Assembly (NCBI RefSeq): GCF_000421765.1
Contig: NZ_ATXQ01000002.1
Location: forward strand, 124,001-188,000
Length of the DNA stretch: 64,000 bases
From: Denitrificimonas caeni DSM 24390
GTDB lineage: Bacteria > Pseudomonadota > Gammaproteobacteria > Pseudomonadales > Pseudomonadaceae
Direction of reading: 5' to 3'
Below, piece after piece: positions 43,266 through 62,719 of the stretch; within the stretch, counting starts at the first letter, position 1, and each line of letters opens with the position of its first letter. The position numbers and the translations under genes were made by a program. The notes under the pieces were generated by a model. The model was not told the origin of the DNA, did no database searches, and was given only the letters and a program-made list of their open reading frames with translations.

Positions 43266-43670
<405 letters not shown>

Positions 43671-43712
43671 CTCTCCACTGCCCGACAACTGAATGTGTCT
43701 AAGGAGACCATG

Positions 43713-44984: not shown

Positions 44985-44996
44985 CCCATAGCGCAC

Positions 44997-45024
44997 ACCG
45001 TCATGGCTGGAGACGCATGACGGT
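44997..45024 (+). other. Hairpin between amtB and nirB
   Basis: ACCGTCATG / CATGACGGT, 9 perfect pairs and a 10-base loop, without a T-tract. It may partly separate glnK-amtB from nirBD-nirC expression or stabilise an mRNA end. Confidence 0.45.
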
Positions 45025-45078
45025 ACGTCAAGTAGACATTGCAAAAAATCATACAAGCCAGCCGCAACAGGAGATCCT

Positions 45079-47616
45079 ATGAACAAGCTGAATTTAGTGG
45101 TCATTGGCAATGGCATGGTGGGTCACCATTTTTTAGAACAACTGGCAGCCAGTTCTAAAGCTCATGCGTTCCAAGTGACGGTCATCGGCGAAGAAAACTA
45201 TTGTGCTTATGACCGAGTACATCTGTCTGAGTATTTCCAAGGGAAAAGTAGCGACGAGCTCGCCTTAGGCAGTGCAAAGCAATATAAAGATTGGGGCTTT
45301 AAGCTGCATTTAGGGGTAAAAGCCACCGCCATCGAGCCGTGTTCACGCAAAGTACAGCTCGACGATGGTACCGAGCTCAGCTATGACAAATTGATCTTAG
45401 CAACCGGCTCATACCCTTTTGTGCCGCCGATTGAGGGCAGCACGCTTGAGCACTGTTTTACCTATCGTACCCTTACTGATCTAGATGCTATTCGCAGCAG
45501 CGCCAACGCCGCCAATACCGGCGTCGTCATTGGTGGTGGTTTATTGGGATTGGAAGCGGCCAAAGCCCTGCGTGATTTGGACCTAGACACTTTTGTTGTT
45601 GAACACTCGCCGCGTTTAATGAATGCGCAAATTGACCAAGAAGGCGGCGAACTGCTGCAAGAAAAGATTGAAGCTTTAGGCGTTCAAGTACTCACCCAGC
45701 GTGCCGCTGTGCGTGTAACTGAAGGGCTCGGAGCGCGGTTATGCGTGGAGTTTGCCGACGGTAAAAAGCTAGAAACCGATTTAATTGTGTTTTCTGCCGG
45801 TATTCGTCCGCGCGATGAACTGCCCCGAGCTGCTGGCTTACTGCTGGGCGAGCGCGGTGGCGTGGCAGTGGACAATTACTGTCAAAGCAGCGACCCGCAG
45901 ATTCTCGCGATTGGCGAAGCCGCAGCTTGGAGTAACTGTTGTTTTGGCTTGGTCGCTCCAGGTTATCAAATGGCCAAAGTAGCTCTGGCTAACTTAATCG
46001 GAGAAGAGTTGGCGTTTACCGGTGCTGATATGAGCACCAAGTTAAAACTGTTAGGTGTTGATGTCGGTGCAATTGGCGACACTCAAGGCAATCAAAACGT
46101 AGGAACCAAGATCTACCGTTACCTTGATCAAATCAGCCAGCACTATCGCAAGATGGTGGTATCCGCCGATGGGCAACGTTTGCTGGGTGCTATTTTGGTG
46201 GGCGACAACAGCTATTACGACACTTTAATGCAGTATTACCGCAATGGTTTGGATCTGCCGGCTCACCCAGAAAGCCTGATTTTGCCAAGCCAGTCTGGTA
46301 GCACACCTTTGCTCGGTATGGCCGCTTTACCAGACAGCGCGATTATTTGCTCCTGCCACAATGTCAGCAAAGGCGACATCGTGGATTGCTTGCAAGGTGG
46401 CTGTGCATCCGTGGCTGAAGTCATCGAACTCTCGCGCGCCAGCACTGGTTGTGGCGGTTGTAGCAGCCAGCTGAAAAGCCTAGTAGAGCAGCAAATGGCT
46501 GCGATGGGCATGGCCGTGAGTAGCGCATTGTGTGAACACTTTGCCTACACTCGGCAAGAGCTGGAACACATGATTCGCACCGAAAGCATCCTGAATTTTA
46601 ACCAACTGCTAGAACGTCATGGTCAGGGTATGGGCTGCGATATTTGCAAGCCGACAGCCGCCAATATTTTTGCCTCGGTGCAGAACGACTTTGTCCTCTC
46701 TGCCGATCACCTCGGCCTGCAAGACACTAACGATGCTTTCTTGGCCAATATGCAAAAAGACGGCACATATTCTGTGGTGCCACGCATCGCCGGGGGTGAG
46801 ATCACTCCGGAGATGCTCATTCTCCTGGGCAAAGTGGCGCGTGACTTTGGTCTTTACAGCAAAATCACTGGTGGCCAACGCATTGACCTGTTCGGTGCTG
46901 AACTCAGCCAACTGCCAGCCATCTGGCAACGTTTGATAGAAGCAGGCTTTGAAACAGGGCAAGCCTACGGCAAATCCGTACGCACAGTGAAAAGCTGCGT
47001 GGGCAGTGCTTGGTGTCGTTATGGCGTGCAAGACAGTGTGCGCTTGGCCATTGATTTAGAGAATCGCTACAAGGGCATTCGCGCGCCGCACAAACTTAAA
47101 TTTGCCGTCAGTGGTTGTACCCGTGAATGTGCTGAAGCGCAGTCCAAAGACTTTGGCGTCATCGCTACAGAAAAAGGCTGGAACCTGTATGTCGCTGGCA
47201 ATGGTGGAATGCGCCCACGTCATGCGGATCTGTTTGCGCAGGATTTAGACACCGATAGTTTAATTCGCACCATCGACCGCATCATGATTTTCTACATCCG
47301 CACCGCTGGACGTTTAGAACGCACCGCACGCTGGTTAGAGAGCCTTGAAGGTGGCTTGGAGTATTTACAGAAAGTCATTTTGCACGACTCGCTCGGTTTA
47401 AATGCTGACCTTGACCAGCAAATGGCGCACTTAGTGGCCAGTTATCAATGCGAATGGCAAACCACACTGAATAACCCAGAAAGCCTAAAACGCTTCCGGC
47501 AGACCATTAACAGTGCTGGAGACGACCCACAATTACTCTATGTCTCAGAACGAGGACAAAAACGCCCCGCGAATGCGCAGGAGCGTGCGCAGCACATCCC
47601 TCTTGTTAGCGTGTAA
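45079..47616 (+). CDS. nirB: Nitrite reductase [NAD(P)H], large subunit
   Basis: Reduces nitrite to ammonium in the cytoplasm. 845 residues in order: FAD domain (VVIGNGMVGHHFLEQL), NAD domain (VVIGGGLLGLEAAKAL near 152), a BFD-type [2Fe-2S] domain (CSCHNVSKGDIVDCLQGG and TGCGGCSSQLK, about 427-475), and a sirohaem/[4Fe-4S] domain with SCVGSAWCRYG and SGCTREC near 640-690. All cofactor cysteines are present. AGGAG precedes the ATG. Together with nirD, nirC and glnK-amtB it suggests assimilatory use. Confidence 0.95.
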   Translation: MNKLNLVVIGNGMVGHHFLEQLAASSKAHAFQVTVIGEENYCAYDRVHLSEYFQGKSSDELALGSAKQYKDWGFKLHLGVKATAIEPCSRKVQLDDGTELSYDKLILATGSYPFVPPIEGSTLEHCFTYRTLTDLDAIRSSANAANTGVVIGGGLLGLEAAKALRDLDLDTFVVEHSPRLMNAQIDQEGGELLQEKIEALGVQVLTQRAAVRVTEGLGARLCVEFADGKKLETDLIVFSAGIRPRDELPRAAGLLLGERGGVAVDNYCQSSDPQILAIGEAAAWSNCCFGLVAPGYQMAKVALANLIGEELAFTGADMSTKLKLLGVDVGAIGDTQGNQNVGTKIYRYLDQISQHYRKMVVSADGQRLLGAILVGDNSYYDTLMQYYRNGLDLPAHPESLILPSQSGSTPLLGMAALPDSAIICSCHNVSKGDIVDCLQGGCASVAEVIELSRASTGCGGCSSQLKSLVEQQMAAMGMAVSSALCEHFAYTRQELEHMIRTESILNFNQLLERHGQGMGCDICKPTAANIFASVQNDFVLSADHLGLQDTNDAFLANMQKDGTYSVVPRIAGGEITPEMLILLGKVARDFGLYSKITGGQRIDLFGAELSQLPAIWQRLIEAGFETGQAYGKSVRTVKSCVGSAWCRYGVQDSVRLAIDLENRYKGIRAPHKLKFAVSGCTRECAEAQSKDFGVIATEKGWNLYVAGNGGMRPRHADLFAQDLDTDSLIRTIDRIMIFYIRTAGRLERTARWLESLEGGLEYLQKVILHDSLGLNADLDQQMAHLVASYQCEWQTTLNNPESLKRFRQTINSAGDDPQLLYVSERGQKRPANAQERAQHIPLVSV

Positions 47617-47638
47617 ATCTAAGCCTTTGGAGGCCGCC

Positions 47639-48004
47639 ATGACAGAACAACAGACGTGGATAACCGTAGGCCAACGCAGCGACTTAATCGATGGTGCCGG
47701 CGTTGGAGCACAAGTCGACAGCGATCAAGTCGCGCTGTTTTACTTAAAAAAACATAACCAACTGTTTGCTGTGGGCAACCTCTGCCCTTTTAACGACCTG
47801 AACATTATTGCCCGCGGCATCATCGGCGATATCAAAGGCGAACCTGTCGTCGCCAGCCCACTGCATAAAGAGCACTTCTCGTTACGCGATGGCCATTGCC
47901 TTGAGCAACCCGAAGTACGTTTACCGGTATGGCAGGTTCGCTTAGAAGGGGATGTCTTACAGGTTATGCGCCCTGCAACACAAGCAACCAGCACTTCGTT
48001 TTAA
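47639..48004 (+). CDS. nirD: Nitrite reductase small subunit
   Basis: 121 residues with the Rieske fold but without the Cys/His cluster ligands, as is usual for NirD. Visible: AVGNLCPFNDLNIIARG and VASPLHKEHFSLRDGHCL. The ATG at 47639 is preceded by GGAGG at proper spacing; the frame is open further upstream into the nirB 3' end but that part is not NirD-like. 22 bases after nirB. Confidence 0.93.
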   Translation: MTEQQTWITVGQRSDLIDGAGVGAQVDSDQVALFYLKKHNQLFAVGNLCPFNDLNIIARGIIGDIKGEPVVASPLHKEHFSLRDGHCLEQPEVRLPVWQVRLEGDVLQVMRPATQATSTSF

Positions 48005-48046
48005 TGATCGTTTTCTGATGCTTCTCTAGATTATCAAGGGGTTTAT

Positions 48047-48856
48047 ATGTCTTACGTTATACCGAGTGAATTTGCCAAAAAAATGGTCGATTCAGGTGAA
48101 GCCAAGTTGCACATGTCGCGCCGCGATGTACTGATTCGCTCTTGCATGGCCGGTGCTATTTTGGCTCTGTCTGCGGCCTTTGCAGTCACAGTCGCGCTGC
48201 AAACCGGCTCGCACTTACTGGCCTCTGTGCTATTCCCAGTTGGTTTTATCATGCTCTATTTAATGGGTTTTGATCTGCTAACAGGCGTGCTTATGTTAAC
48301 ACCTTTGGCATGGCTGGATCGTCGACCAGGTGTCACTCCGGGGGTGGTACTGCGCCACTGGGGCTGGGTGTTTTTAGGCAATTTTAGCGGAGCGCTACTG
48401 GTGGCCTTGCTGTTGTCCTTCACCTTTACCATGGGTTTTGCGACCGAACCGGGCGCTATTGCTGCCAAACTGGCCTCGATTGGTGAGTCGCGTACGCTAG
48501 GTTATGCCGAGTACGGTGCCAGTGGCTGGGTAACTATTTTCATTCGCGGCATGCTGTGCAACTGGATGGTTTCAATGGGTGTGGTAGGTGCCATGCTCTC
48601 CACCAACGTCAGCGGTAAGGCAATTGCCATGTGGATGCCTGTAATGCTGTTCTTTTACATGGGCTTTGAGCACTCGGTGGTCAATATGTTCTTATTTCCC
48701 ACGGCGATGTTGATGGGTGGCGACTTCTCCGTAATGGACTATTTGCTCTGGAATGAAATCCCTACCGTATTGGGCAACCTCGCTGGCGGCCTGTTGTTTA
48801 CCGGTCTAGCGCTATACACAACGCATGTACGTACTGCACCACAACGCGTCTTATAA
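48047..48856 (+). CDS. nirC: Formate/nitrite transporter family channel (NirC-type)
   Basis: 269 residues, six membrane helices, FNT family pentameric channel for small anions. The family motif MGFEHSVVNMFLFP is near residue 205. Position directly after nirBD, as in enterobacterial nirBDC, points to nitrite rather than formate. The N-terminus is charged and cytoplasmic (YVIPSEFAKKMVDSGEAK). Confidence 0.87.
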   Translation: MSYVIPSEFAKKMVDSGEAKLHMSRRDVLIRSCMAGAILALSAAFAVTVALQTGSHLLASVLFPVGFIMLYLMGFDLLTGVLMLTPLAWLDRRPGVTPGVVLRHWGWVFLGNFSGALLVALLLSFTFTMGFATEPGAIAAKLASIGESRTLGYAEYGASGWVTIFIRGMLCNWMVSMGVVGAMLSTNVSGKAIAMWMPVMLFFYMGFEHSVVNMFLFPTAMLMGGDFSVMDYLLWNEIPTVLGNLAGGLLFTGLALYTTHVRTAPQRVL

Positions 48857-48870
48857 GCTAAGGAGTCACC

Positions 48871-49575
48871 ATGCATATCCAAGTCTTTCAGCATGTATCC
48901 TTTGAAGGGCTTGGATACATTGAGCACTACCTTAATCAAGCACAGCATCAGATCAGCTATAGCAAATTTTTCGCTAGCCCTTGCCTGCCTTCCCTTGAAC
49001 ACATAGATGCCCTGCTTATTATGGGCGGCCCAATGAGTGTGCATGATCACGCTGAGCACCCTTGGCTGCGTGATGAAATTGAGTTTATTCGCCGCTTTGC
49101 CGCCACCGGTAAGCCCATGCTGGGTATTTGTCTCGGCGCGCAGCTCATCGCCAATGCTTTGGCGGCAGATGTATACGCCAACCCAGAAAAAGAAATCGGC
49201 TGGCACCCGATCAGTACTAGCAAGCATGGCAAGGATCAGGTGTTTCAATTCCCCAGTTGCATTGAAGTGTTTCACTGGCACGGAGAAACCTTTAGCTTGC
49301 CGCAGGGAGCCATTTGTTTAGCGCACAGTCAAGGCTGTGCTCAGCAGGCATTTCAGCTCGGGCGACATATTATTGGTTTGCAGTTTCACTTAGAAGCCAC
49401 TCAAAAAACGGCCAAAGCGCTCGTCAGCCACTGCCAAGCTGAACTGGTCAAAGGACGCTATATCCAAAGCGCCGACGAAATAATGGCCGCAGCACCTGAG
49501 CGTTATATGGCGATCAATCAGTTGATGAGTGAGGTATTGGACTACTTGCTTGCCCCTGAATCATGTCAGCCATGA
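48871..49575 (+). CDS. Class I glutamine amidotransferase-like protein
   Basis: 234 residues, free-standing GATase1 domain of the GMP-synthase/GuaA-like type. The nucleophile is Cys87 in MLGICLGAQLIANAL, the His is in GLQFHLEAT near 171, and the oxyanion strand is LLIMGGPMSVHDH. No synthetase partner is fused or nearby, so the ammonia acceptor is unknown. AAGGAG precedes the ATG and the gap to nirC is 14 bases, so it belongs to the nitrite operon. A glutamine or gamma-glutamyl hydrolase role is possible. Confidence 0.85.
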   Translation: MHIQVFQHVSFEGLGYIEHYLNQAQHQISYSKFFASPCLPSLEHIDALLIMGGPMSVHDHAEHPWLRDEIEFIRRFAATGKPMLGICLGAQLIANALAADVYANPEKEIGWHPISTSKHGKDQVFQFPSCIEVFHWHGETFSLPQGAICLAHSQGCAQQAFQLGRHIIGLQFHLEATQKTAKALVSHCQAELVKGRYIQSADEIMAAAPERYMAINQLMSEVLDYLLAPESCQP

Positions 49576-49599
49576 CTCAAGGGTTGGCCAAGCCGTGTT

Positions 49600-50862
49600 T
49601 TACTTAGACGACCACGTCTTAGCGGCAAAATCTAAGGTGGCAAAGTAATCGGCCAGTGTTTCGGCACGGCGAATCAACTCAACACTGCCATCGGCTCTAA
49701 GCAACAACTCTTGCGGACGCAGCTTACCATTGTAATTAAAGCCCATCGCCTGACCGTGTGCGCCAGTGTCTTGAATAATCAACAAGTCACCATCAACGAT
49801 CGCTGGCAGCGCGCGTTGGATAGCAAACTTATCGTTGTTTTCACAGAGCGAACCCACTACATCGACGACCTCATCGTCAGCGCTGGAGGTTTTACCAAGC
49901 ACATCAATATGGTGATAAGCGTTGTACATGCCGGGACGCATTAACGCTGACATGCAAGCATCGACACCCACATAAGTGCGATAAATCTCTTTACGGTTAA
50001 TTGCCTCAGTCACCAACACACCATGTGGGCCGGTGATATAGCGGCCACTTTCCATATACACCTTGGGCTGGTAGCCATGCTGCGCGGCAAATGTCTGCAA
50101 TAGCGTTGCGGTTTCGCGGCCTAACAACTCAATATCAAAAGCTGTTTCTTCTGGGCGGTAGGGAATACCCAAGCCACCGCCGATATTAATAAATTCAAAC
50201 TCAATATTCAGTTTTTGACCCACTTCAGCCACGAGATCTAACAACATCTGTGTGGTTTGCACCATATATGCAGGGTTGCACTCATTGGACGCCAGCATGG
50301 TGTGTAGGCCAAAGCGTTTCGCGCCACGCGCTTGTGCTTTGCTAAAGGCGGTAAATATTTGCGCGTGGGTCAAACCATATTTGGCTTCTTCTGGTACGCC
50401 AATGATGCTGTTACCGCTGCGTGCTGAGCCGGGGTTATAACGAAAACACACCAGTTCTGGCATCTCTGGGACTTTATCAATCAGGCCAATGTCATCTAAA
50501 TTCAGAATACAGCCGCCCTGTTCCTGCGCCGCCACAAACTCTTCGATTGAGGTGTTATTGGAGGTGAACATAATATCCTCACCTTGACCACCGGCTTGAC
50601 GCGACAGCACCAACTCGGCAATTGAGCTGCAATCAAAGCCAAAGCCCAAATCCGCCATAATCTTTAAAATACTGGGGTTGGGCAGCGCTTTCACCGCGTA
50701 GTACTCACGAAAGCCTGGGACATTGGCGAAGGCTTGTTGTAATCGATGACCGGTATCGCGAATACCCTGCTCGTCATAAATATGGAAAGGTGTGCCAAAT
50801 TCAGCGGCGATACTGCGCAGTTTTGGGTACAAACGTTGACTAAAATCTGTAGAAATAGGCAT
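49600..50862 (-). CDS. lysA: Diaminopimelate decarboxylase
   Basis: Fold-III PLP enzyme of 420 residues converting meso-DAP to lysine. PLP lysine Lys58 in REYYAVKALPNPSIL, phosphate-binding GGGLGIPY near 230, substrate arginine in MESGRYITGPHG near 275, and the partner-subunit cysteine in GSLCENNDKFA near 337. It has HTMLASNE where many LysA have HIGS, a variant I cannot place. ATG at 50862 follows GGGGG at 7 bases; a TTG two codons earlier is the alternative. Last gene of gltB-gltD-dapL-lysA; a carboxynorspermidine decarboxylase is less likely in this context. Confidence 0.87.
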   Translation of the reverse strand: MPISTDFSQRLYPKLRSIAAEFGTPFHIYDEQGIRDTGHRLQQAFANVPGFREYYAVKALPNPSILKIMADLGFGFDCSSIAELVLSRQAGGQGEDIMFTSNNTSIEEFVAAQEQGGCILNLDDIGLIDKVPEMPELVCFRYNPGSARSGNSIIGVPEEAKYGLTHAQIFTAFSKAQARGAKRFGLHTMLASNECNPAYMVQTTQMLLDLVAEVGQKLNIEFEFINIGGGLGIPYRPEETAFDIELLGRETATLLQTFAAQHGYQPKVYMESGRYITGPHGVLVTEAINRKEIYRTYVGVDACMSALMRPGMYNAYHHIDVLGKTSSADDEVVDVVGSLCENNDKFAIQRALPAIVDGDLLIIQDTGAHGQAMGFNYNGKLRPQELLLRADGSVELIRRAETLADYFATLDFAAKTWSSK

Positions 50863-50874
50863 CAGCAAGCCCCC

Positions 50875-52113
50875 TTAAAGTGGTGAATGGTGCAGCAATG
50901 CCGCTTCAATGCGTTGCATGGCCTGTTGGACTTTCTCGAAATTATTGAACGCACTGATGCGGATATGTTGTTCGCCGCAGCGACCAAAACCAGCACCGGG
51001 GGTACAAATCACCCCAGCGTTATTCAGTAAGAAATCAAAGAATGTCCAGGCATCTTGCTTAACCTCGATCCAAATGTACGGCGAGTTATCACCGCCGCTG
51101 CATGCAAAGCCCATGCGCTGAAAGGCTTGACGAATGTACGCTGCATTTTTTAGGTAGTACTCAATCAGCTCGGCCACTTGCGCTTTACCGGCGGGGCTAT
51201 AGACCGCTTCTGCTGCGCGCTGGACCGGGTAAGACACACCATTGAACTTGGTGGTATGTCGACGCATCCATAAGTCACGCACCGAGACTGCAACGCCTGC
51301 TGCGGTGTAAGCAGTACAGGCTTTAGGCACCACCGTATAAGCACAGCGCACACCAGTGAAACCTGCGGTTTTCGAGAAGCTTCTAAACTCAATCGCGACT
51401 TTTTCAGCACCTTCGATTTCATAAATGGAATGCGCTACATCCTCATCCTGAATAAAGGCCTCGTAGGCGGCATCGAATAAAATCAGCGCTTGCTGCTCAA
51501 GCGCATATTCAACCCAAAGGCGCAGCTGATCACGGGTGATACTCGCTCCGGTGGGGTTATTGGGGAAACACAGATAGATCAAATCCACCGGCTCGCTCGG
51601 TAGTTCAGGGATGTAATTGTTTTCAGCCGTGCACTCAAGATAGACCAAACCCTGATAACGCCCTGCTTGGCTCGCGCCGGTGCGTCCGGCCATCACATTG
51701 GTATCGACGTAGACCGGATACACCGGATCAGGAATGGCTAAGCGTAAATCTTGCGCAAACAGTTCTTGAATGTTGCCGGTATCGCACTTAGCACCGTCGC
51801 TGACAAAAATCTCATCGGCATTGATGTTGGCGCCGCGCGCTTGAAAATCATGCTCAGCAATGGCTTGGCGTAAAAAATCATAACCTTGTTCAGGGCCGTA
51901 GCCGCGAAAGGTCTGACTCTCAGCCAGCTCATCAACCGCTTTGTGCATGGCTTGCACACAGGCGTCAGGTAACGGCAGGGTGACATCGCCAATGCCTAAG
52001 CGGATTAATTCACGCTCAGGGTGTTGTTGTTGAAAAGCCTGGATGCGCTGGTTAATTTCAGCAAACAAATAGCTGTTTTGCAGTTTTTGGTAGTGCTCAT
52101 TAATACGAATCAT
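50875..52113 (-). CDS. dapL: LL-diaminopimelate aminotransferase
   Basis: Fold-I PLP aminotransferase of 412 residues that converts tetrahydrodipicolinate directly to LL-DAP with glutamate as amino donor, bypassing DapD, DapC and DapE. Recognised from the N-terminus YLFAEINQRIQAFQQQHPE, LIRLGIGDVTLPLPDACVQA, VYPVYVDTNVMAGRTG, FPNNPTGA and the PLP lysine in FRSFSKTAGFTGVRCAY (near residue 247). Length equals that of known DapL. It lies 21 bases after gltD and 6 before lysA. DapL is not the route of standard pseudomonads, so its presence here is notable. Confidence 0.9.
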   Translation of the reverse strand: MIRINEHYQKLQNSYLFAEINQRIQAFQQQHPERELIRLGIGDVTLPLPDACVQAMHKAVDELAESQTFRGYGPEQGYDFLRQAIAEHDFQARGANINADEIFVSDGAKCDTGNIQELFAQDLRLAIPDPVYPVYVDTNVMAGRTGASQAGRYQGLVYLECTAENNYIPELPSEPVDLIYLCFPNNPTGASITRDQLRLWVEYALEQQALILFDAAYEAFIQDEDVAHSIYEIEGAEKVAIEFRSFSKTAGFTGVRCAYTVVPKACTAYTAAGVAVSVRDLWMRRHTTKFNGVSYPVQRAAEAVYSPAGKAQVAELIEYYLKNAAYIRQAFQRMGFACSGGDNSPYIWIEVKQDAWTFFDFLLNNAGVICTPGAGFGRCGEQHIRISAFNNFEKVQQAMQRIEAALLHHSPL

Positions 52114-52134
52114 AATGACCTTATCGAGGTAGAG

Positions 52135-53601
52135 TTAACGCGGCAACGTGCTGCTGCCCATTAAGAATTGATCCACGGCTCGCGCTGCTTGGCGACCTTC
52201 ACGAATCGCCCACACCACCAGCGATTGACCACGGCGCATATCACCAGCGCTGAACACTTTCGTCACATTAGTGGCATAGCCGCCTTGGGCATCCACACTG
52301 GCTTTAGCATTGCCACGGCCATCCAACTCCACACCAAAGCCTTCTAGAAGGGTGGCCACAGGACTGGCAAAGCCCATGGCTAACAGCACCAAATCAGCGG
52401 GCCAAAATTGTTCACTGCCTGCCACTTCGACAAAAGCGCCCTGCTGCATCTCCACGCGGACGGTTTTCAGGCCAGTTAATTTGCCGTTGCTGCCAACAAA
52501 CTCTTTGGTGGCAATCGCAAACTCTCGTTCACAGCCTTCTTGATGACTTGACGAAGTGCGCAATTTGTAAGGCCAGTACGGCCACGTCAGCGGCTTGTTT
52601 TCTTGCTCTGGCGGGCGCGCCATCACTTCAAATTGCACTACGCTGGCGGCGCCTTGACGGTTGGAGGTACCCACGCAATCCGAGCCGGTATCACCGCCAC
52701 CAATCACAATGACCTGCTTACCTTCAGCGCGCAGCTGCTCAGGCATCGCAACGCCAGCATTGACGCGGTTTTGCTGCGGCAAAAACTCCATGGCGAAATG
52801 CACGCCATCCAACTCACGCCCCGGCACCGGTAAATCACGTGATTGTTCGGCACCACCGGTGAGTAATACTGCGTCGAAGTCCTGCAGCAGGCTGCTCGGG
52901 CTAACACTCTGCGTAGCCCAGTTGGTCACTTTGCTATCGGCAGGTAAATCGCCGATCAAGGTGTTGGTGCGAATCTCGACGCCTTCAGCCAGTAATTGCT
53001 CAACGCGGCGATCGATATGCACTTTTTCCAGTTTGAAATCAGGAATACCAAAACGCAGCAAACCACCCACTTGATCATTTTTTTCAAACAGGGTGACACT
53101 GTGCCCGACCCGCGCCAATTGCTGCGCAGCCGCCAGACCTGCAGGACCAGAGCCCACCACCGCAACTGTTTTCCCTGTCTTGTGGCTGGCTATTTGTGGC
53201 TGTATCCAGCCTTCGGCATAGGCGCGATCAACAATGGCATGCTCGATGGACTTAATGCCGACCGGCTGTGCATTAATATTTAAAGTACAGGCCGCTTCAC
53301 AAGGTGCAGGACACACACGTCCGGTAAACTCGGGGAAGTTATTGGTCGAGTGCAAGACCTTGCTGGCGTTGTGCCAATCATCGCGATACACCAAGTCATT
53401 AAAGTCCGGAATAATATTATTCACCGGACAAGCACTGTGACAAAAGGGTGTGCCGCAATCCATACAACGTGCACTTTGTTGGTGCGCTTGTGCTGGGGTC
53501 AAACCGTGCACAAACTCGTGGTAATTTTTTAGACGTAATTCAACTGCGTCGTATTCTTCTTCGATACGTTGAAACTCTATAAATCCAGTAGCTTTTGACA
53601 T
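52135..53601 (-). CDS. gltD: Glutamate synthase (NADPH) small subunit
   Basis: 488 residues. Supplies electrons to GltB: N-terminal [4Fe-4S] ligands in [20 protein letters not shown] and [14 protein letters not shown]-binding [20 protein letters not shown] near 150, and NADPH-binding [13 protein letters not shown] near 295, ending with the [14 protein letters not shown] flavin contact. Full length. 12 bases after gltB. Confidence 0.96.
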
Positions 53602-53613
53602 TGATTATTCCTC

Positions 53614-56600
53614 CTAGCAACTTACACTGGCGATGACAGGCGCAGCGGCCTGCGCAGCAGCATTGATCTGTTCCAGCGCGCGACGGTATTCATGCGGGAA
53701 TACTTTGATAAAGCGCTTTTTGGCTGTCGCCCAATTGGCCAGTAGTTCTTCTGCACGTAACGAGCCAGTCAAATGCAAATGTTCTTCAAGCAAACCCTTT
53801 AATAAGGTTTCATCCGCTGTTTGCGCATGCAATGGGATACCAGCAGCCGCTTGCGCAGTAGGATCCAGCAGCGGTTCTAGGCCGACTTGTTCGGTGTTAC
53901 AACGCAGGGCAAATTGACCGTCTTGGTCATATACAAAAGCCACGCCACCCGACATCCCCGCAGCAAAGTTACGCCCGGTTTGCCCAAGCACGACGACGGT
54001 GCCACCGGTCATGTATTCACAACCATGATCACCCACACCTTCCACCACAGTGCTCGCGCCGGATAGGCGTACCGCAAAGCGCTCGCCGGCCACGCCACTA
54101 AAGAAAGCTGAGCCTGAGGTGGCGCCATACAACACGGTATTACCGACAATGATGTTGTCGCTCGACATACCTTTAAAGTCGCGGCTTGGACGCACAATCA
54201 AGCGCCCGCCGGACAAGCCTTTACCACTGTAGTCATTGGCTTCGCCGACTAGATCAAAGGTAATCCCTTGAGCAAGGAAGGCAGCAAAACTCTGACCGCC
54301 CGTACCAGTGCAATGCACATGGATACTGTCATCGGCTAAACCATCAGGGTGATGTTTAATCAGCGCACCCGACAGCATCGCGCCGACCGTACGGTTAGTG
54401 TTTCTCACCTGAGTTTCAATGCGCACAGGCTTACCATGTAGCAAAGCCGCCTGCGCCTGAGCGATCAACTGCTGATCAAGTGCATGTTCCAGACCATGTT
54501 CTTGCTGACTGCTGTGTAAACGTGGCACTTCTGCAGGCGCCGTAGGCAAGGCAAATACACGGCTAAAATCTAAGCCTTGCGCTTTCCAATGCTCAACGCC
54601 TTGGCGCATGTCGAGTAAGTCGGTACGGCCAATCAGCTCGTCGAAGCGACGCACACCGAGTTGCGCCATGATCTGCCGCACTTCTTCGGCAATAAAGAAG
54701 AAGAAATTGACCACATCTTCAGGCTTGCCAGAAAACTTCTTACGCAGTTCAGGGTCTTGCGTGGCAATGCCCACAGGACAGGTATTGAGGTGACATTTGC
54801 GCATCATAATGCAGCCTGAAGCAACCAAAGGCGCGGTAGCAAAACCAAACTCATCGGCACCCAATAAGGCTCCCATCACCACATCGCGGCCAGTTTTCAT
54901 CTGACCATCGGCTTGGATCCGTACTCGCCCACGCAAACGGTTCAGCACCAAGGTTTGCTGGGTTTCTGCCAGACCCAACTCCCACGGCGTGCCAGCGTGC
55001 TTAATCGAACTCCAAGACGCTGCACCGGTGCCGCCATCATGACCAGCAATAACGATGTGATCGGCTTTAGCTTTCGCCACACCAGCAGCAATGGTGCCCA
55101 CGCCCACTTCTGAAACCAGCTTGACTGAAATATCAGCACTGGGATTGACGTTTTTTAAGTCGTGAATCAGCTGGGCTAAATCTTCAATGGAGTAAATATC
55201 ATGGTGCGGTGGTGGCGAGATCAATCCCACGCCCGGCACTGAATGGCGCAACTTACCAATGTAGTTGGACACCTTGTTACCCGGTAACTGCCCGCCTTCG
55301 CCGGGCTTAGCACCTTGCGCCATTTTGATCTGGATTTGATCGGCGGAGACCAGATACTCCGTGGTGACGCCAAAACGTCCTGAGGCCACTTGCTTGATTT
55401 TCGAGCGCAGGCTGTCGCCTTCACGCAGAATGTAGTCAACCTCTACAGTGTCTTGACCCATCACCTCACTTAACAAGGTCCCTGCAGCAATCGCTTGGCC
55501 TTCCATTTCATTACGATAGCGCGCGTGATCTTCACCACCCTCACCGGTATTGCTCTTGCCACCAAGACGGTTCATAGCAATCGCCAGGTTCATGTGCGCT
55601 TCGGTGGAAATTGAGCCTAATGACATGGCTCCGGTGGCAAAACGCTTCACGATTTCACTGGCCGCTTCTACTTCTTCGACAGCAATGCTGCGCTCAGGTT
55701 GAAGGCGAAACTCAAACAAGCCTCGCAGCGTGGTATGACGCTTAGACTGATCATTAATGATTGCTGCATATTCAGTAAAGGTTTCATAGCGATTGCTACG
55801 GGTGCTGTGCTGTAACTTAGCAATCGCATCTGGTGTCCAGGCATGTTCTTCAGCGCCAGCACGCCAAGCAAATTCACCACCGACATCCAACTGCTGACTC
55901 GCCACTGCAGCAGGATTAAAGGCATGCTGATGACTGCGTATCGCCTCGTCAGCAATATCAAAGATACCCAGTCCACCAATTTTTGAAGGCGTGCCGGCAA
56001 AATACTTGTTCACCAGCTCTTCACTTAAACCCACCACTTCAAAAATCTGCGCACCGCAGTACGACATATAGGTACTGATGCCCATTTTCGACATGATTTT
56101 AGTTAAGCCTTTACCCACCGCCTTAACAAAATACTGTGACGCTTGCTCAGCGCTAACACCTAACTCAGGGGCAATATCGGCCAGTGTTTCTAACGCTAAA
56201 TAAGGGTGAATGGCTTCAGCACCAAAACCTGCCAAGACCGCAAAATGATGCACTTCACGGGCGCTGCCGGTTTCTACCACAAGACCAACAGTGGTACGCA
56301 AACCTGCACGCACCAAATACTGATGAATAGCTGATAAGGCCAATAACACTGGAATCGCCACTTGATCACGGCTCATGTAGCGGTCGGTGATAATTAAAAT
56401 ATTACAGCCGGCATGAATCGCCTCTTCAGCCTCCGAGCACAGATAAGCAATCCGCGCTTCAACGCCCGCTTTGCCCCACTGGCTTGGGTAGGTGATATCA
56501 ATTTCACATTTGCGAAACTTACCGCCCGTGCTCTGCTCGATATGGCGTAAACGCGCCATATCGGCGACATCTAAGATCGGTTGCGAGATTTCTAAACGCA

Positions 56601-58341
56601 GTGGTGGATTGCTGGCATTGATATCCAACAAGTTAGGACGCGGGCCAATAAAGGACACCAGCGACATCACCACCGCTTCACGAATCGAATCGATGGGCGG
56701 GTTGGTTACTTGCGCAAAGAGCTGACGAAAGTAATGGTACAAAGGCTTGTTGCGCGCTGACAGCACCGCTAATGGCGCATCGTTGCCCATTGAGCCAATG
56801 CCTTCTTCAGCGTTAACGGCCATCGGAGCCAATTGGTATTTAATATCTTCTTGGCTATAACCAAAGGCTTGCTGACGGACTAACAACGGCTCGGCAAAGG
56901 TCAACGGCTCAGCATCGCTGCTTAAGGTATCCAGACACATGCGCACATTATCGATCCACTGACGATAAGGTTTGGCCTGCGCATAGCGCTGCTTCAGCTC
57001 TTCATCTTCAACGATGCGGCCTTGCTCTAAGTCGATCAGGAACATTTTGCCGGGCTGTAAACGCCACTTGCGCACAATCCGCTGATCAGGAATCGGCAAC
57101 ACGCCAGTTTCTGAGGCCAACACCACCATGTCATCATCGGTGACAATAAAGCGCGCAGGTCGCAGACCGTTACGATCTAGGGTTGCACCAATTTGTCGAC
57201 CATCGGTAAAGACCATCGCCGCAGGACCATCCCAAGGCTCGAGCATCGCCGCATGGTACTCATAAAAAGCACGACGCTGCGCATCCATCTGATTATGTTT
57301 TTCCCAGGCTTCTGGGATCATCATCATCGCTGCTTGCGCCAGCGGATAACCGGCCATCACCAGCAACTCTAAGGTGTTATCAAAGGTTGCCGTGTCAGAT
57401 TGGCCATCCATGCTGATCGGATAGAGTTTTTGTAAATCATCACCGAGCACCGGCGACGACATCACCCCTTCGCGGGCACGCATCCAGTTAAAGTTACCTT
57501 TCACTGTGTTGATTTCACCGTTATGCGCCACCATGCGATAGGGGTGAGCCAGCGGCCAGGAAGGAAAGGTATTAGTGGAAAAGCGCTGATGCACTAAGGC
57601 CAAGGCTGAGACCAACTGCGGATCTTGCAAGTCGAGGTAGTACTGACCCACCTGATTTGCTAGCAATAAACCTTTATAGATCACCGTGCGGCACGACATG
57701 CTCGGCACATAGTATTCAAAGCTGTGAGTGAGGCGTAAATGAGTAATCTTGGCTGAAGCAGTTTTACGAATCAGATACAGCTTACGTTCCAGCGCATCAG
57801 ACACCATGATGTCGGCACCACGGCCAATAAATACCTGACGAATCACCGGCTCACTGGCGCGCACATCCTCAGACATCGGTAAATCACGATTGACCGGCAC
57901 ATCACGCCAGCCCAGCAGCACTTGCTTCTCAGCGGCAATCGCCCGCTCTAACTCGCGCTCACAAGCTTGGCGTGCGGCAGCTTCTTTGGGCAAAAACACC
58001 ATGCCCACGCCATAATCACCCGCTGGTGGCAGCTGCACGCCTTGCTTGGCCATCTCGGCACGGTAAAAAGCATCAGGAATTTGAATCAGTAAGCCTGCAC
58101 CATCGCCCATTAATGGGTCAGCACCGACCGCGCCACGATGGTCAATATTTTCCAGAATCTTCAGCCCTTGCTGAACAATGGCGTGCGATTTAATCCCTTT
58201 AATATGCGCAACGAAGCCAACGCCACAGGCGTCATGCTCGGCATTGGCATACAGACCTGTGTCGATCGCGTGTTGAATTTCCTCTGCGCTTGCAGCTCGG
58301 ACAGTTTCTGACGTTGGCGCTTGCGGCGTTACCTTAGGCAT
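53614..58341 (-). CDS. gltB: Glutamate synthase (NADPH) large subunit
   Basis: 1575 residues. Transfers the glutamine amide to 2-oxoglutarate. After a propeptide of 38 residues the nucleophile is Cys39 in [13 protein letters not shown], then the class-II GATase domain, central domain, FMN/[3Fe-4S] synthase domain ([46 protein letters not shown]) and C-terminal beta-helix ([15 protein letters not shown]). The [10 protein letters not shown]... [16 protein letters not shown] form is, from memory, that of alpha/betaproteobacteria and cyanobacteria, whereas Pseudomonas and E. coli have DNCGFGLIAH. It heads gltB-gltD-dapL-lysA, with a sigma-54-like promoter upstream. Confidence 0.95.
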
Positions 58342-58415
58342 AGGAACACTCCCTATCTAAATAAAAAATAAATGCGGCGAAGCAACTAAAGTTGTCGCGC
58401 TTTACTCTCTATTCA

Positions 58416-58430
58416 GCAAGGATTAGGCCA
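58416..58430 (-). promoter_or_regulatory. Candidate sigma-54 promoter of gltB-gltD-dapL-lysA
   Basis: Minus strand TGGCCTAATCCTTGC keeps the essential GG-N10-GC of the sigma-54 -24/-12 promoter, with two mismatches in the -24 block. It lies 75 bases before the gltB ATG, downstream of two NtrC-type dyads. Confidence 0.5.
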
Positions 58431-58505
58431 ATCTATAGAAACGCCCTAAACATGCGCCATACAGGCACTAAGGCTAAGATTCACCGGTCTTTTCACGGTG
58501 TTTTC

Positions 58506-58541
58506 GCACCAAAACCATGCAGCCACGCACCAAAGTTGTGC
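58506..58541. promoter_or_regulatory. Two candidate NtrC sites upstream of gltB
   Basis: GCAC-CAAAGTT-GTGC (58527-58541) is an exact GCAC-N7-GTGC dyad; GCAC-CAAAACC-ATGC (58506-58520) has one mismatch. Their centres are 21 bases apart, two helical turns, about 110 and 130 bases before the predicted start. Confidence 0.55.
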
Positions 58542-58550
58542 GCAGCGGCT

Positions 58551-59969
58551 TTATTCTGCGCTGTCCTCGTCGACAGCACCTTCTTGCACGCCCAGTTCAT
58601 TGATTTTTCGCGTTAAGGTGTTGCGTCCCCAGCCTAACAACTCTGAGGCATCACGCCGCCGCCCGCTAGCATGGGCTAAAGCAGCTTCAATCATCACCCG
58701 CTCAAACATCGGTAGCGCACGATCCAGCAAACCTTTATCGCCCTGCTGCAAAGCCTGCTCAGCCCAACGCCGCAAAGATACTTCCCAGTCCGGAGAAGCC
58801 GCGCCTGCGGTTGTGTGATGTAACAGTTCGACCGGTAGATCGCTAACCATCACCTCGCGACTGGAGGCCATCACGGTCAACCAGCGGCAGGTATTCTCCA
58901 GCTGGCGCACATTACCTGGCCAGTCGAGTTGGCTTAAATACACTTCTGTTTCAGGCAATAACACGCGCCTTTCAGTCGCGAGTTCATCCGCCGCTTTTTG
59001 CAGAAAGTGCGCAGCTAAAGTAGCAATGTCTTCACGCCTCTCACTGAGCCTTGGCAGATGGATACGGATCACATTCAAGCGATGGTAGAGGTCTTCGCGA
59101 AACAAGCCTTGGCGCACCAGCACCTCAAGATCACGGTGGGTTGCCGCGATGATCCGCACATCCACGCGAATCGGCGTGTGCCCACCGACTCGATAAAAGG
59201 TGCCATCGGCTAACACGCGCAACAAGCGCGTTTGTGTATCCAATGGCATATCGCCAATCTCATCGAGAAACAAGGTGCCTTGATGCGCTTGTTCAAAACG
59301 CCCATGGCGCACACTGGCGGCTCCGGTAAAAGCCCCTTTCTCATGACCAAACAGCTCAGACTCAATTAAGTCCTTGGGTATCGCGGCCATATTCAGCGCA
59401 ATAAAAGGCTGCTGCGCTCTAGGGCTATGTTGATGTAAAGCATTGGCCACCAACTCTTTACCAGTGCCAGACTCTCCATGAATCAACACGGTCATGTGCG
59501 AGTGCGAGAGCCTACCAATGATACGAAACACCTCCTGCATCGCCGGCGCTTCACCAATAATAGCGCTAGCAGAAGCACTGTATTCGGTGCTTGCAGCAGC
59601 GTCCTTGGAATGAGCTAAAGCGCGTCGCACTAAGGCAATCGCATCATCTAAATCAAAAGGTTTAGGCAGGTATTCAAACGCGCCACTTTGATAGGATTTA
59701 ACCGCACTGTCTAAATCAGAATGCGCCGTCATCACAATCACTGGCAAATGCGCATAACGCTGATGCACTAAGGCTAACAAGGCCAAACCGTCCATACCTT
59801 GCATGCGAATATCGGTAATGATGACATCAGGTTGCGTCTCTGCCAGCTGCGCCAATGCCTCTTCACCACTGGCAAAGGTTGTGGTGGTGAAACCTGCTTG
59901 GCTTAAGGCTTTTTCCAACACCCAACGCATCGACTTATCATCATCGACAATCCAAACTTGGTCAGTCAT
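58551..59969 (-). CDS. ntrC: NtrC, nitrogen response regulator
   Basis: Sigma-54 activator of 472 residues: receiver domain with Asp53 in VIITDIRMQGMDG, AAA+ domain with Walker A GESGTGKE near 168 and the sigma-54-contacting loop GAFTGA near 215, and a C-terminal Fis-type helix-turn-helix (ASELLGWGRNTLTRKINELG, near residue 445). When phosphorylated by NtrB it would activate the -24/-12 promoters seen at glnA, glnK and gltB. Its start overlaps the ntrB stop by four bases. Confidence 0.96.
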   Translation of the reverse strand: MTDQVWIVDDDKSMRWVLEKALSQAGFTTTTFASGEEALAQLAETQPDVIITDIRMQGMDGLALLALVHQRYAHLPVIVMTAHSDLDSAVKSYQSGAFEYLPKPFDLDDAIALVRRALAHSKDAAASTEYSASASAIIGEAPAMQEVFRIIGRLSHSHMTVLIHGESGTGKELVANALHQHSPRAQQPFIALNMAAIPKDLIESELFGHEKGAFTGAASVRHGRFEQAHQGTLFLDEIGDMPLDTQTRLLRVLADGTFYRVGGHTPIRVDVRIIAATHRDLEVLVRQGLFREDLYHRLNVIRIHLPRLSERREDIATLAAHFLQKAADELATERRVLLPETEVYLSQLDWPGNVRQLENTCRWLTVMASSREVMVSDLPVELLHHTTAGAASPDWEVSLRRWAEQALQQGDKGLLDRALPMFERVMIEAALAHASGRRRDASELLGWGRNTLTRKINELGVQEGAVDEDSAE

Positions 59970-61072
59970 GGCAGTACTCCTGGGTAAGGTTCAAGATGCG
60001 GGTCAACAGGGATTAAAATACGAAAAACTGTACGTCCGCGCGTGCTCTCACACTCAATCAGCCCTTCATGCTCTTGAATGATGCCTTGCGCAATCGGCAA
60101 ACCCAGCCCTGTGCCTTGAGCGCGGCCAGTGACCATCGGATAAAACAGTGTTTCCAGCAACGGTCCATCAATACCCGGGCCGTTATCTTCGACTTCCACC
60201 AAACACACCAAACGATGTCGGTGCGCACCAATCGTAAACTGTCGTAACACCCGCGAACGCAAGATGATTTCAGCAGGACGCTCGCTCGGATTTTCTAATA
60301 AGGCTTGCGCAGCATTACGGACAATATTAAGCACCACTTGAATCAAGCGATCTAAATCGGCATACAACTCGGGCAGGCTGGGATCGTAATCACAGCTCAG
60401 CGTAATCGCTTCACCCACTTCTGCTTGCAAAATAAGGCGCACACGCTCTAACACTTGATGAATATTGATCCGAGTAAAATGCAAACGCTGACGCGGCCCC
60501 AGCATACGGTCGACGACATGGCTTAAGCGGTCAGTCTCGGCAATGATCACATCGGTATATTCTTGGAACTCTGGCGAGGACAGTTGCCGCGCCAGCAATT
60601 GCGCCGCTCCGCGAATGCCGCCCAGCGGATTTTTAACCTCGTGTGCTACGCCGCGCACTAAAGCACGGGTCACTTGATGGGCAGTAAATAAATTGTCTTC
60701 ACGACTCAGACGCAAAACACGGTCTTGCGGGAACAACTCGACCAGTAATTGCTTGCCTGCTTGCCCAGCGCCATTGAATGGCGTGGCGGTATAATCCAAG
60801 GTAACCACCTGAGCGGTACTCGGAAAATGTAAACGTGCTTCACGGCGCGTATAGGGCTGCTGATCTAACAAAGCATTGTTGAGCGCGTCCAAGCACTCAT
60901 CATCTTCCCAAAAAAACAGCGCAATCGAACGCCCAAGCAAATGCGTGCGACTGGTGGCAAAGAGCTGCTCCGCAGCAGGATTGGCGTAGCGCACAGATAA
61001 GTGCTCATCAAGCAGCAAGACCGCTGTGGAGAGTTGTTCGAGTAAGGCATTGCCTAAAACGGCTGAGTTCAT
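59966..61072 (-). CDS. ntrB: NtrB, nitrogen sensor kinase/phosphatase
   Basis: Soluble histidine kinase of 368 residues without membrane helices. PAS domain (about 10-110), HisKA with the phospho-acceptor in GVAHEVKNPLGGIRGAAQLL, and HATPase_c with NIVRNAAQALLEN and GTGLGLPIAQGIIQEHEG. Its activity is set by PII (GlnK/GlnB). Second gene of glnA-ntrB-ntrC, separated from glnA by a terminator that presumably allows read-through. Confidence 0.96.
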   Translation of the reverse strand: MNSAVLGNALLEQLSTAVLLLDEHLSVRYANPAAEQLFATSRTHLLGRSIALFFWEDDECLDALNNALLDQQPYTRREARLHFPSTAQVVTLDYTATPFNGAGQAGKQLLVELFPQDRVLRLSREDNLFTAHQVTRALVRGVAHEVKNPLGGIRGAAQLLARQLSSPEFQEYTDVIIAETDRLSHVVDRMLGPRQRLHFTRINIHQVLERVRLILQAEVGEAITLSCDYDPSLPELYADLDRLIQVVLNIVRNAAQALLENPSERPAEIILRSRVLRQFTIGAHRHRLVCLVEVEDNGPGIDGPLLETLFYPMVTGRAQGTGLGLPIAQGIIQEHEGLIECESTRGRTVFRILIPVDPHLEPYPGVLP

Positions 61073-61110
61073 AGGTGATTTACTGACAGAAAGTCTCTAT
61101 AAAAATAAGT

Positions 61111-61129
61111 ATGCCCCAAAAAGGGGCAT
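61111..61129 (-). terminator. Terminator between glnA and ntrB
   Basis: Hairpin ATGCCCC / GGGGCAT with a 5-base loop. On the minus strand it is followed by ACTTATTTTTATAG. The position fits partial termination after abundant glnA mRNA with read-through into ntrBC. Confidence 0.75.
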
Positions 61130-61135
61130 AAGTAT

Positions 61136-62542
61136 TTACAGACTGTAATACATATCAAACTCGGCGGGATGCACCGACTGACGCAAGCGCGTGACCTCGC
61201 CCATTTTGCATTCAATATAGGCACTGAGCATGTCCTCAGAAAATACACCGCCTTCTAGCAAGAAGTGTCGGTCTGACCACAGCGCTTCCAGCGCTTGATC
61301 TAAGCTGTAAGCCACTTGAGGGATATCTTGGGCTTCTTCAGGCGGCAAGTCATACAAGTTTTTATCCATTGCCTCGCCTGGATCAATTTTATTTTTGATG
61401 CCATCAAGGCCCGCCATCAATAGCGCTGCAAAGGTTAAATACGGGTTGGAACTTGGATCTGGGAAGCGGCACTCAATACGCTTGCCTTTAGGGTTTTTAA
61501 CCCAAGGTATACGAATCGAAGCAGAACGGTTACGTGCTGAGTAAGCCAACATCACCGGTGCTTCAAAGCCTGGCACTAGACGCTTGTAAGAGTTAGTACC
61601 GGGGTTGGTAATGGCATTCAGTGCGTGCGCATGTTTAATGATGCCGCCAACATAATGCAGGGCCATTTCAGACAAACCGGCATAGCCATCACCCGCAAAC
61701 AAATTCTTACCATCTTTTGCCAAGGACTGGTGCACATGCATGCCTGAGCCGTTATCGCCAACCAATGGTTTAGGCATAAAGGTGGCGGTTTTACCAAAGG
61801 CATGCGCGACATTGTGCACGCAATATTTCAGCAACTGCACTTCATCGGCTTTTTTCACCAAGGTGTTAAACGGCACTCCAATTTCACACTGGCCCGCATT
61901 GGCCACTTCATGGTGATGCACTTCAATACCCAAGCCCATCGCTTTCATGGCGTCACACATGGCGGTGCGCACATCAACCAGTGAGTCCACGGGCGGAACA
62001 GGAAAATAACCGCCCTTCACCCGTGGGCGATGGCCGCTATTTTTGCCTTCGGCTAAGGTTTTGGTTGCCCAAGCGCCTTCACCGGAGTGGATTTCAAAAC
62101 CCACTTTGTTCATCGACTCTTCCCAGGTCACCGCATCAAACACAAAGAACTCTGGCTCTGGACCAAAATATGCGGTGTCAGCAATACCGGTGGAGCGCAG
62201 ATACACTTCGGCACGCTGCGCAATCGAGCGTGGATCACGGTCATAGTTAGACAAGGTGGTCGGGTCTGCCACATCACAACGCACAATCACCGTCGGCACC
62301 GTTGCAAACGGATCCATCACTGCAGTGGAGTCATCCGGCAACAACGTCATATCGGATGCTTCGATGCCTTTCCAGCCATGAATAGACGAGCCATCAAACA
62401 TTCTGCCTTCTTCCAAGGCTTCTTCATCGAAGGTTTCTGATGGGAAAGTAATGTGATGCTCTTTACCTAAAGTATCGGTAAAACGTAGATCTACCCACTG
62501 GGCATTGTGCTCTTTAATCAGTGATAGGGTCTTGGTAGACAT
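61136..62542 (-). CDS. glnA: Glutamine synthetase, type I
   Basis: Dodecameric enzyme of 468 residues making glutamine from glutamate, ammonium and ATP. Visible: [17 protein letters not shown], the metal/ATP block [22 protein letters not shown] near 265, [10 protein letters not shown], and the adenylylation tyrosine in [10 protein letters not shown] near residue 397. ATG at 62542 ([20 protein letters not shown]) is preceded by GAGGAG; an upstream in-frame extension to 62584 is not GlnA-like. Expression should be NtrC/sigma-54 dependent, given the upstream elements. Confidence 0.97.
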
Positions 62543-62606
62543 GGCAAATGACTCCTCTAAGTCAAATTGATAACTGCAGTTCAATACTGCTCTATAGAGG
62601 ATTTAG

Positions 62607-62621
62607 CAAATTCCATGCCAT
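62607..62621 (-). promoter_or_regulatory. Sigma-54 promoter of glnA-ntrBC
   Basis: Minus strand TGGCATGGAATTTGC, one mismatch from TGGCAC-N5-TTGC with correct GG-N10-GC spacing. The predicted start near 62595 gives a leader of about 53 bases. Confidence 0.75.
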
Positions 62622-62673
62622 AAGAAAAAGTCAGTGAATACAAGGGGAAACGTCAGTTAAGAGGGGTAGGAGC

Positions 62674-62719
62674 GCACTAAAATAGTGCGAAAGCTTTATG
62701 TTTGGCACCAATCTGATGC
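62674..62719. promoter_or_regulatory. Two candidate NtrC enhancer sites of glnA
   Basis: GCAC-TAAAATA-GTGC (62674-62688) is an exact NtrC dyad within the longer palindrome CGCACT-N5-AGTGCG; GCAC-CAATCTG-ATGC (62705-62719) has one mismatch. Centres are 31 bases apart, close to the spacing known for the paired enhancer sites of enterobacterial glnA. Confidence 0.65.

Follow-up and report, generated by a model that had tools for sequence, protein, structure and literature searches.

A dapL-lysA pair follows the glutamate synthase genes

We analysed a stretch of 64,000 nucleotides of contig NZ_ATXQ01000002.1 (the window) from the genome of a Denitrificimonas-type pseudomonad (the source genome, G000), in which the genes of glutamate synthase are followed by dapL, the predicted gene of an LL-diaminopimelate aminotransferase, and by a second lysA. 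The four genes gltB-gltD-dapL-lysA lie on the minus strand at 49600-58341. gltB (53614-58341) encodes the large subunit of glutamate synthase (NF008730, 1689 bits, cut-off 1047; GATase_2, Glu_syn_central, Glu_synthase and GXGXG domains) and gltD (52135-53601) a small subunit of the TIGR01317 type (706 bits, cut-off 447.7, versus 322 bits for TIGR01318). They are followed by dapL (50875-52113) and by lysA (49600-50862), whose product resembles diaminopimelate decarboxylases and carries a CENxD motif. The open reading frame coordinates bore out the gaps of 12, 21 and 6 bases reported in the initial annotation. The last of these depends on a TTG start, with the reading frame opening at 50868; an in-frame ATG at 50862 lies behind AAGGGGG, gives a gap of 12 bases and is the likelier start.

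The initial annotation had described a four-gene unit. The same-strand array with gltBD stood, but the unit is larger, as ntrC (58551-59969; NF008176, 737 bits, cut-off 620), ntrB (59966-61072; NF008293, 332 bits, cut-off 240) and glnA (61136-62584; TIGR00653, 658 bits, cut-off 429) lie immediately upstream of gltB on the same strand. The full unit thus reads glnA-ntrB-ntrC-gltB-gltD-dapL-lysA and faces amt-nirB-nirD-nirC. Furthermore, an intact epimerase gene lies outside the four-gene run: a second dapF (42136-42987; TIGR00652, 300.6 bits, cut-off 114.65) is found beyond amt, back on the dapL strand and 6.6 kb past lysA, and its product keeps both catalytic cysteines in the alignment. A pattern scan detected 26 terminator-like sites, somewhat over the 16.3 expected by chance, and none of them between gltB, gltD, dapL and lysA. 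The spacing from gltB to lysA suggests that the genes could be read as one transcript.

The aminotransferase groups with DapL sequences

The predicted aminotransferase scored 585.3 bits against TIGR03542 (cut-off 364.7), while the next-best aminotransferase model reached only 189 bits. Its best solved relative was 6oxm (519 bits), and ALD1 (4fl0, 300 bits) was also among the solved relatives. For the DapL of V. spinosum the key residues are given as I43, G44, Y74, E77, K111, Y134, N189, K251, N294 and R390 (PMC7113581). All ten are kept in the window protein, counted by eye in the alignment to 6oxm, which we infer from the matching numbering to be the V. spinosum enzyme. In a tree of 74 rows, built from DapL sequences only after removal of L062 (a split match), the window protein stood in one supported clade with the other Pseudomonadota DapL, among them those of Marinospirillum and a Burkholderiales metagenome-assembled genome (MAG), and with that of G028; this clade joins desulfobacteria at 100/100. 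The window protein is 98% identical to the DapL of the D. caeni comparison genome.

The identity proposed in the initial annotation was therefore upheld by the score margin, the key residues and a place inside the DapL sequences, in a tree that had no outgroup of other aminotransferases, and we regard the protein as a predicted genuine DapL. DapL enzymes consume glutamate and return 2-oxoglutarate (PMC4176475), and the same reaction with glutamate as donor is expected here, given the sequence, the active-site residues and the tree position. What differs is the pseudomonad host and the location in a nitrogen island, where the gene comes after gltBD; Gammaproteobacteria are not named in the section of the same review on distribution (section 8). 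The closest DapL and LysA outside Pseudomonadota are those of desulfobacteria, with about 65-69% identity each, but in none of the retrieved dapL loci of desulfobacteria does a lysA of the CENxD type stand next to dapL.

The succinylase route appears broken in the source genome

The initial annotation had stated that standard pseudomonads use the succinylase route and had proposed a genome search for dapD, dapC and dapE. DapE gave no match in the source genome (E ≤ 0.001), with 13 of 14 control genomes positive in the same search. Nor did it exceed the cut-off in any of the nine distinct dapL carriers, namely the source genome, D. caeni, Marinospirillum (G391), the Burkholderiales MAG (G392), G028, G435, G436, G438 and G441 (G390 and G440, identical in coordinates and size, were taken as one); the best match below the cut-off was one of 105 bits in G392. 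Of the family's genomes lacking dapL, 18 were tested, and DapE was over the cut-off in ten and not in eight, so that the statement on standard pseudomonads holds for most of these genomes but fails for 8/18. Relatives that have neither DapE nor a DapL of the TIGR03542 type include G442, G444, G449 and G462.

DapD of the source genome stayed below the cut-off (416.3 versus 518.45 bits) and is missing a loop that is conserved in 6/6 relatives. All six non-carriers tested had DapD over the cut-off, and none of five carriers did; the E. coli-type DapD (PF14805) had no match in the source genome. The DapD-like protein, without the STMGTLSGGG loop and without the C-terminal end, is encoded at 8132-9124 of L184 (G000:C4), at 6079-7068 of L185 and at ~1179393-1180382 of G442. 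This altered DapD is found in the non-carrier G442 as well as in the source genome and D. caeni (88-90% identity, ratio of non-synonymous to synonymous changes, dN/dS, 0.02-0.05), and it has probably been repurposed. For D. caeni we considered a dapD pseudogene with a stop codon and rejected it, as the frame runs open for 329 amino acids and the TAA simply terminates it.

A comparable picture emerged for the native DapF, which is encoded beside the canonical lysA. It lacks both catalytic cysteines in all four Pseudomonadales carriers aligned, namely the source genome (645-1532 of L071, G000:C1), D. caeni, G028 and Marinospirillum (the further loci being L090, L091 and L086), and in the same four carriers the second DapF keeps both. 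In four of four non-carriers (G020, G061, G342 and G094) the native DapF is intact. In Marinospirillum, serine occupies both cysteine positions. We also note that a second DapF-like protein of G094 (L087), a member of the Pseudomonadaceae without dapL, lacks both cysteines as well, and the trait is therefore not confined to carriers. The cysteine-free native DapF is still an open reading frame with a dN/dS of 0.09. Mere decay of DapD and native DapF was rejected on the dN/dS values of 0.02-0.09, which were obtained with synonymous sites near saturation. In E. coli, the activation of RppH by DapF persists when the two cysteines are missing (PMC4227774); by analogy, RppH activation is one possible reason for keeping such a protein.

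As for dapC (reference: TIGR03538, 685 bits), the glnD-arsC site, the only place inspected for this gene, holds ~200 bp without it in the source genome (a 199-bp gap) and in D. caeni. Four of six non-carrier stretches (G094, G342, G061 and G271) have the gene at this site or next to arsC; with two of six lacking it, we withdrew an early view of dapC loss as strong evidence. The pseudomonad dapD locus has the order map-glnD-dapC-arsC-dapD-csdA-csdE, with dapE beyond, and map-glnD-arsC-dapD-csdA-csdE is still present in the source genome; the difference is that dapC and dapE are missing there and DapD is altered. The proposed search thus returned no DapE match, a DapD below the cut-off without its loop, and no dapC at the usual site. 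The DapD match and the canonical lysA had at first suggested that DapL is a mere extra beside an intact succinylase route; we rejected this, the route appearing broken by the lack of DapE and by the loss of the DapD loop and of the native DapF cysteines.

dapL is rare in the order and recurrently linked to gltBD

At E ≤ 1e-80, a threshold at which the other DapL class (TIGR03540) would be missed, dapL was detected in 2 of 390 genomes of the order and in six of 12 genomes of the genus including the source; four of the six genus members without it are only 76-85% complete, and completeness is not given for G390, G391 and G392. The array glnA-ntrB-ntrC-gltB-gltD-dapL-lysA recurs in Denitrificimonas caeni (L001), Marinospirillum minutulum (L003), G436 and G438, and G028 (L193), from another family of the order, has the same order without lysA. 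In the Burkholderiales MAG, dapL-lysA lies on another contig than gltBD. In total, gltBD or part of it was near dapL in seven of 69 dapL loci (L001, L002, L003, L005, L043, L050 and L065), many of the 69 being short contigs.

Linkage was also found in three of 12 Bacteroidota dapL loci, directly in L065, with dapF between in L050 and with asnB and dapF between in L043. These Bacteroidales loci share the association of glutamate synthase genes with dapL, and dapF stands between them in two of three; they differ in that their DapL branches elsewhere in the tree (53-56% identity), in the lack of an adjoining CENxD-type lysA and in that glnA-ntrBC was not seen. In Bacteroides uniformis grown on pectin, gltB, gltD, asnB, dapF and dapL are listed among the down-regulated genes, in a passage that does not call them an operon (PMC5609589). 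The survey of dapL neighbourhoods that the initial annotation had suggested thus shows the gltD-dapL order recurring in relatives, with a wider linkage in Bacteroidales. A literature search covering few subscription papers found no description of the gltBD-dapL-lysA arrangement.

The type of GltD followed dapL closely. In a search of 26 genome handles at E ≤ 1e-120, GltD of the TIGR01317 type was found in eight of the nine distinct carriers and in none of 16 non-carriers. The carrier without a match was G441, in which a contig end truncates dapL; it is probably the MAG that contains locus L005, and in that locus dapL is preceded by the last 70 residues of gltD. Since this GltD type was found only in carriers, gltBD and dapL appear to share a history, the different contigs of the Burkholderiales MAG excepted. 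On the short contig L005 (1123-2450), a piece of glnA abuts these last 70 gltD residues, probably through an assembly join or a deletion.

The LysA of the window fell below the TIGR01048 cut-off by a narrow margin (295.3 versus 297.9 bits). The CENxD motif was present in 16/16 loci of the window lysA type and CE[ST]xD, which has a role in substrate binding, in 15/15 other LysA loci. Among 41 other dapL genomes, 12 carried a CENxD-type LysA, four of them beside another LysA and eight (G394, G396, G397, G417, G405, G406, G416 and G428) as the only LysA match, while 23 had only other LysA types and six had no LysA match. Because it is the sole LysA match in eight of these genomes, the CENxD type appears able to do the job of LysA, and the window gene probably encodes a LysA-like, working decarboxylase. 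Genes for Lrp-like regulators, both below the NCBIfam cut-off, were seen near lysA of this type, directly upstream in Desulfopila (L202, 7138-7593) and downstream in the Burkholderiales MAG (L004, 13960-14484).

A 19.4-kb tract was recently exchanged with D. caeni

Nucleotide comparison and synonymous distances delimit a 19.4-kb tract at 43322-62689 of the window that is ~94-96% identical to the D. caeni comparison genome, in contrast to ~70-80% in the flanks tested. To the left, where ~1 kb of flank was compared, the second dapF is ~80% identical. To the right, only a piece of 92 bp matches beyond 62689, and alignable sequence resumes 26 kb further on, at ~69-76%. Synonymous distances to D. 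caeni were 0.07-0.30 for ntrC, gltB, gltD, dapL, lysA and amt, compared with 0.94-2.5 for the genes of the dapD locus, those of the lysA-dapF locus and the second dapF; the compared proteins outside the tract were 68-92% identical, which points to the source being a different species of the genus-level group of D. caeni. Distances of the island genes to G436 and G438 were 1.0-1.5. The tract with its sharp ends was recently exchanged between the source species and D. caeni, and at least part of the nitrogen island has thus recently passed between species. The island itself may originate from outside the genus.

A proposed alternative diaminopimelate route carried by a nitrogen island

In our judgement it is likely that gltB-gltD-dapL-lysA is part of a nitrogen-assimilation island that has moved from one species to another and brings along a substitute for the succinylase branch of lysine and wall-precursor synthesis. 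The pathway swap is well supported. As far as gene content tells, DapL and the second DapF are the only complete diaminopimelate route seen in the source genome, and the old route is predicted to be unable to run as in other pseudomonads. Since the DapL route also needs a DapF, the intact second DapF outside the four-gene run is required. DapL, presumably the main route, would convert tetrahydrodipicolinate and glutamate to LL-diaminopimelate and 2-oxoglutarate, the second DapF would provide meso-diaminopimelate for the wall and LysA would lead on to lysine, each activity being predicted. Glutamate synthase runs in the reverse direction, from 2-oxoglutarate to glutamate with the nitrogen of glutamine, and GltBD would in this way renew the glutamate and take back the 2-oxoglutarate. 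Joint expression of gltBD and dapL-lysA, possibly from a single transcript of the array and under nitrogen control through NtrC, would balance donor supply and demand and may couple nitrogen assimilation to wall supply.

Several observations weigh against this reading. DapE loss is wider than DapL gain: the eight DapE-less non-carriers comprise all six of the same genus and both of genus g148, and such relatives must use something else, perhaps meso-diaminopimelate dehydrogenase (Ddh), as the source lineage may have done or may still do. In G442 the altered DapD is found with no dapC beside dapD, and only ~140 bp, with no dapE, separate tcdA from rlmA, the genes on either side of dapE in G271 (the two 400-kb blocks of G442 contain the dapD locus and this junction; the lysA-dapF and glnA-ntrBC loci were not found in them). 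The altered DapD is strongly conserved and not rotting. The absence of dapC says little, because two genomes that keep DapE also lack the gene, G446 at the glnD-arsC site and G020 in the stretch around dapD, and ArgD could stand in for DapC. The genome also has the canonical lysA (529 bits), and dapL genomes of other phyla mostly have other LysA types. The threshold of the GltD search hides the native pseudomonad GltD and puts the status of native gltBD outside its reach, and promoter-like sites were at chance level in the pattern scan (10 found, 12.1 expected). DapL as the cause of the losses in the old route is thus not established.

The first of these points leads to a different sequence of events, in which Ddh or another route replaced the succinylase branch and freed DapE and DapF, and DapL arrived later in some species, together with the second DapF, as an extra or a second replacement; DapL would then not have caused the losses and may not be the sole route. 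We regard this as possible, if somewhat doubtful. It accounts for the same-genus relatives that lack both dapL and DapE and for the same gaps in G442. Moreover, the DapL route itself needs DapF, so that its gain alone would not have freed the native DapF to lose its cysteines, and a Ddh period would explain the death of this protein. On the other hand, a scan of the window and of 800 kb of G442 (2.83 Mb in total) turned up none of three short Ddh motifs, although this does not amount to a proper test, as no whole-genome Ddh search was made; and Marinospirillum and G028, outside the family, also pair dapL with a cysteine-free native DapF and have no DapE or DapD over the cut-off.

A rather unlikely explanation concerns the arrangement, namely that dapL-lysA came to lie behind gltBD by a chance insertion or is read from a promoter of its own; there would then be no coupling, and the island would be kept for nitrogen assimilation. 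That the pair can stand alone is illustrated by the separate contigs of the Burkholderiales MAG, and G028 has dapL without lysA. Nevertheless, the tight same-strand spacing, the preserved succession of gltD and dapL in Marinospirillum, G028 and the Denitrificimonas-type genomes, the gltBD-dapL linkage in Bacteroidales and the joint listing of the B. uniformis genes as down on pectin (PMC5609589) argue for more than chance. An aminotransferase with another substrate, as in plant ALD1, and a lysA-like gene acting on its product, would fit the presence of ALD1 among the solved relatives and the LysA score just below the curated cut-off. We consider this very improbable, given that the best hit among solved structures is a diaminopimelate aminotransferase from a bacterium, that the CENxD type is the only LysA match in 8/41 other dapL genomes and that the genome is otherwise without DapE. 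Finally, a stronger version of the island, which we deem unlikely, would make it a mobile nitrogen-to-cell-wall module with its own glnA, NtrBC, gltBD, DapL and LysA that puts wall precursor under nitrogen control and replaces the succinylase route, while the orphaned DapD and DapF would have been retained in new roles that need no catalysis, which in the case of DapF might be the activation of RppH.

If the swap through an exchanged nitrogen island holds true, it would be a clear-cut example of a pseudomonad replacing an essential part of its central metabolism, with the losses in the old route visible gene by gene and the genes of the new route sitting in a block that moves between species. 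In our view the main interest lies in this combination of pathway swap and mobile island rather than in the four-gene run alone. That gltBD and dapL meet in Gammaproteobacteria and in Bacteroidales alike suggests that selection favours a tie between nitrogen assimilation and the supply of diaminopimelate. The host range of DapL also matters because the enzyme has been put forward as a target for antibacterials of narrow spectrum (PMC4176475).

Genes facing the array

The remaining genes of this region lie on the plus strand. A glutamine amidotransferase-like gene (48871-49575; NF005458, 205 bits, below the cut-off of 250; PF00117, 89.5 bits) is convergent with lysA and preceded by a nirC-like gene of the formate/nitrite transporter family (48047-48856; PF01226, 220 bits). 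nirB (45079-47616; TIGR02374, 1010 bits, cut-off 578) encodes the large subunit of nitrite reductase and is directly followed by a nirD-like gene (47513-48004), named by eye from its translation without a profile scan. The ammonium transporter gene amt (43695-44984) belongs to the marine subtype (TIGR03644, 615 bits, cut-off 514).

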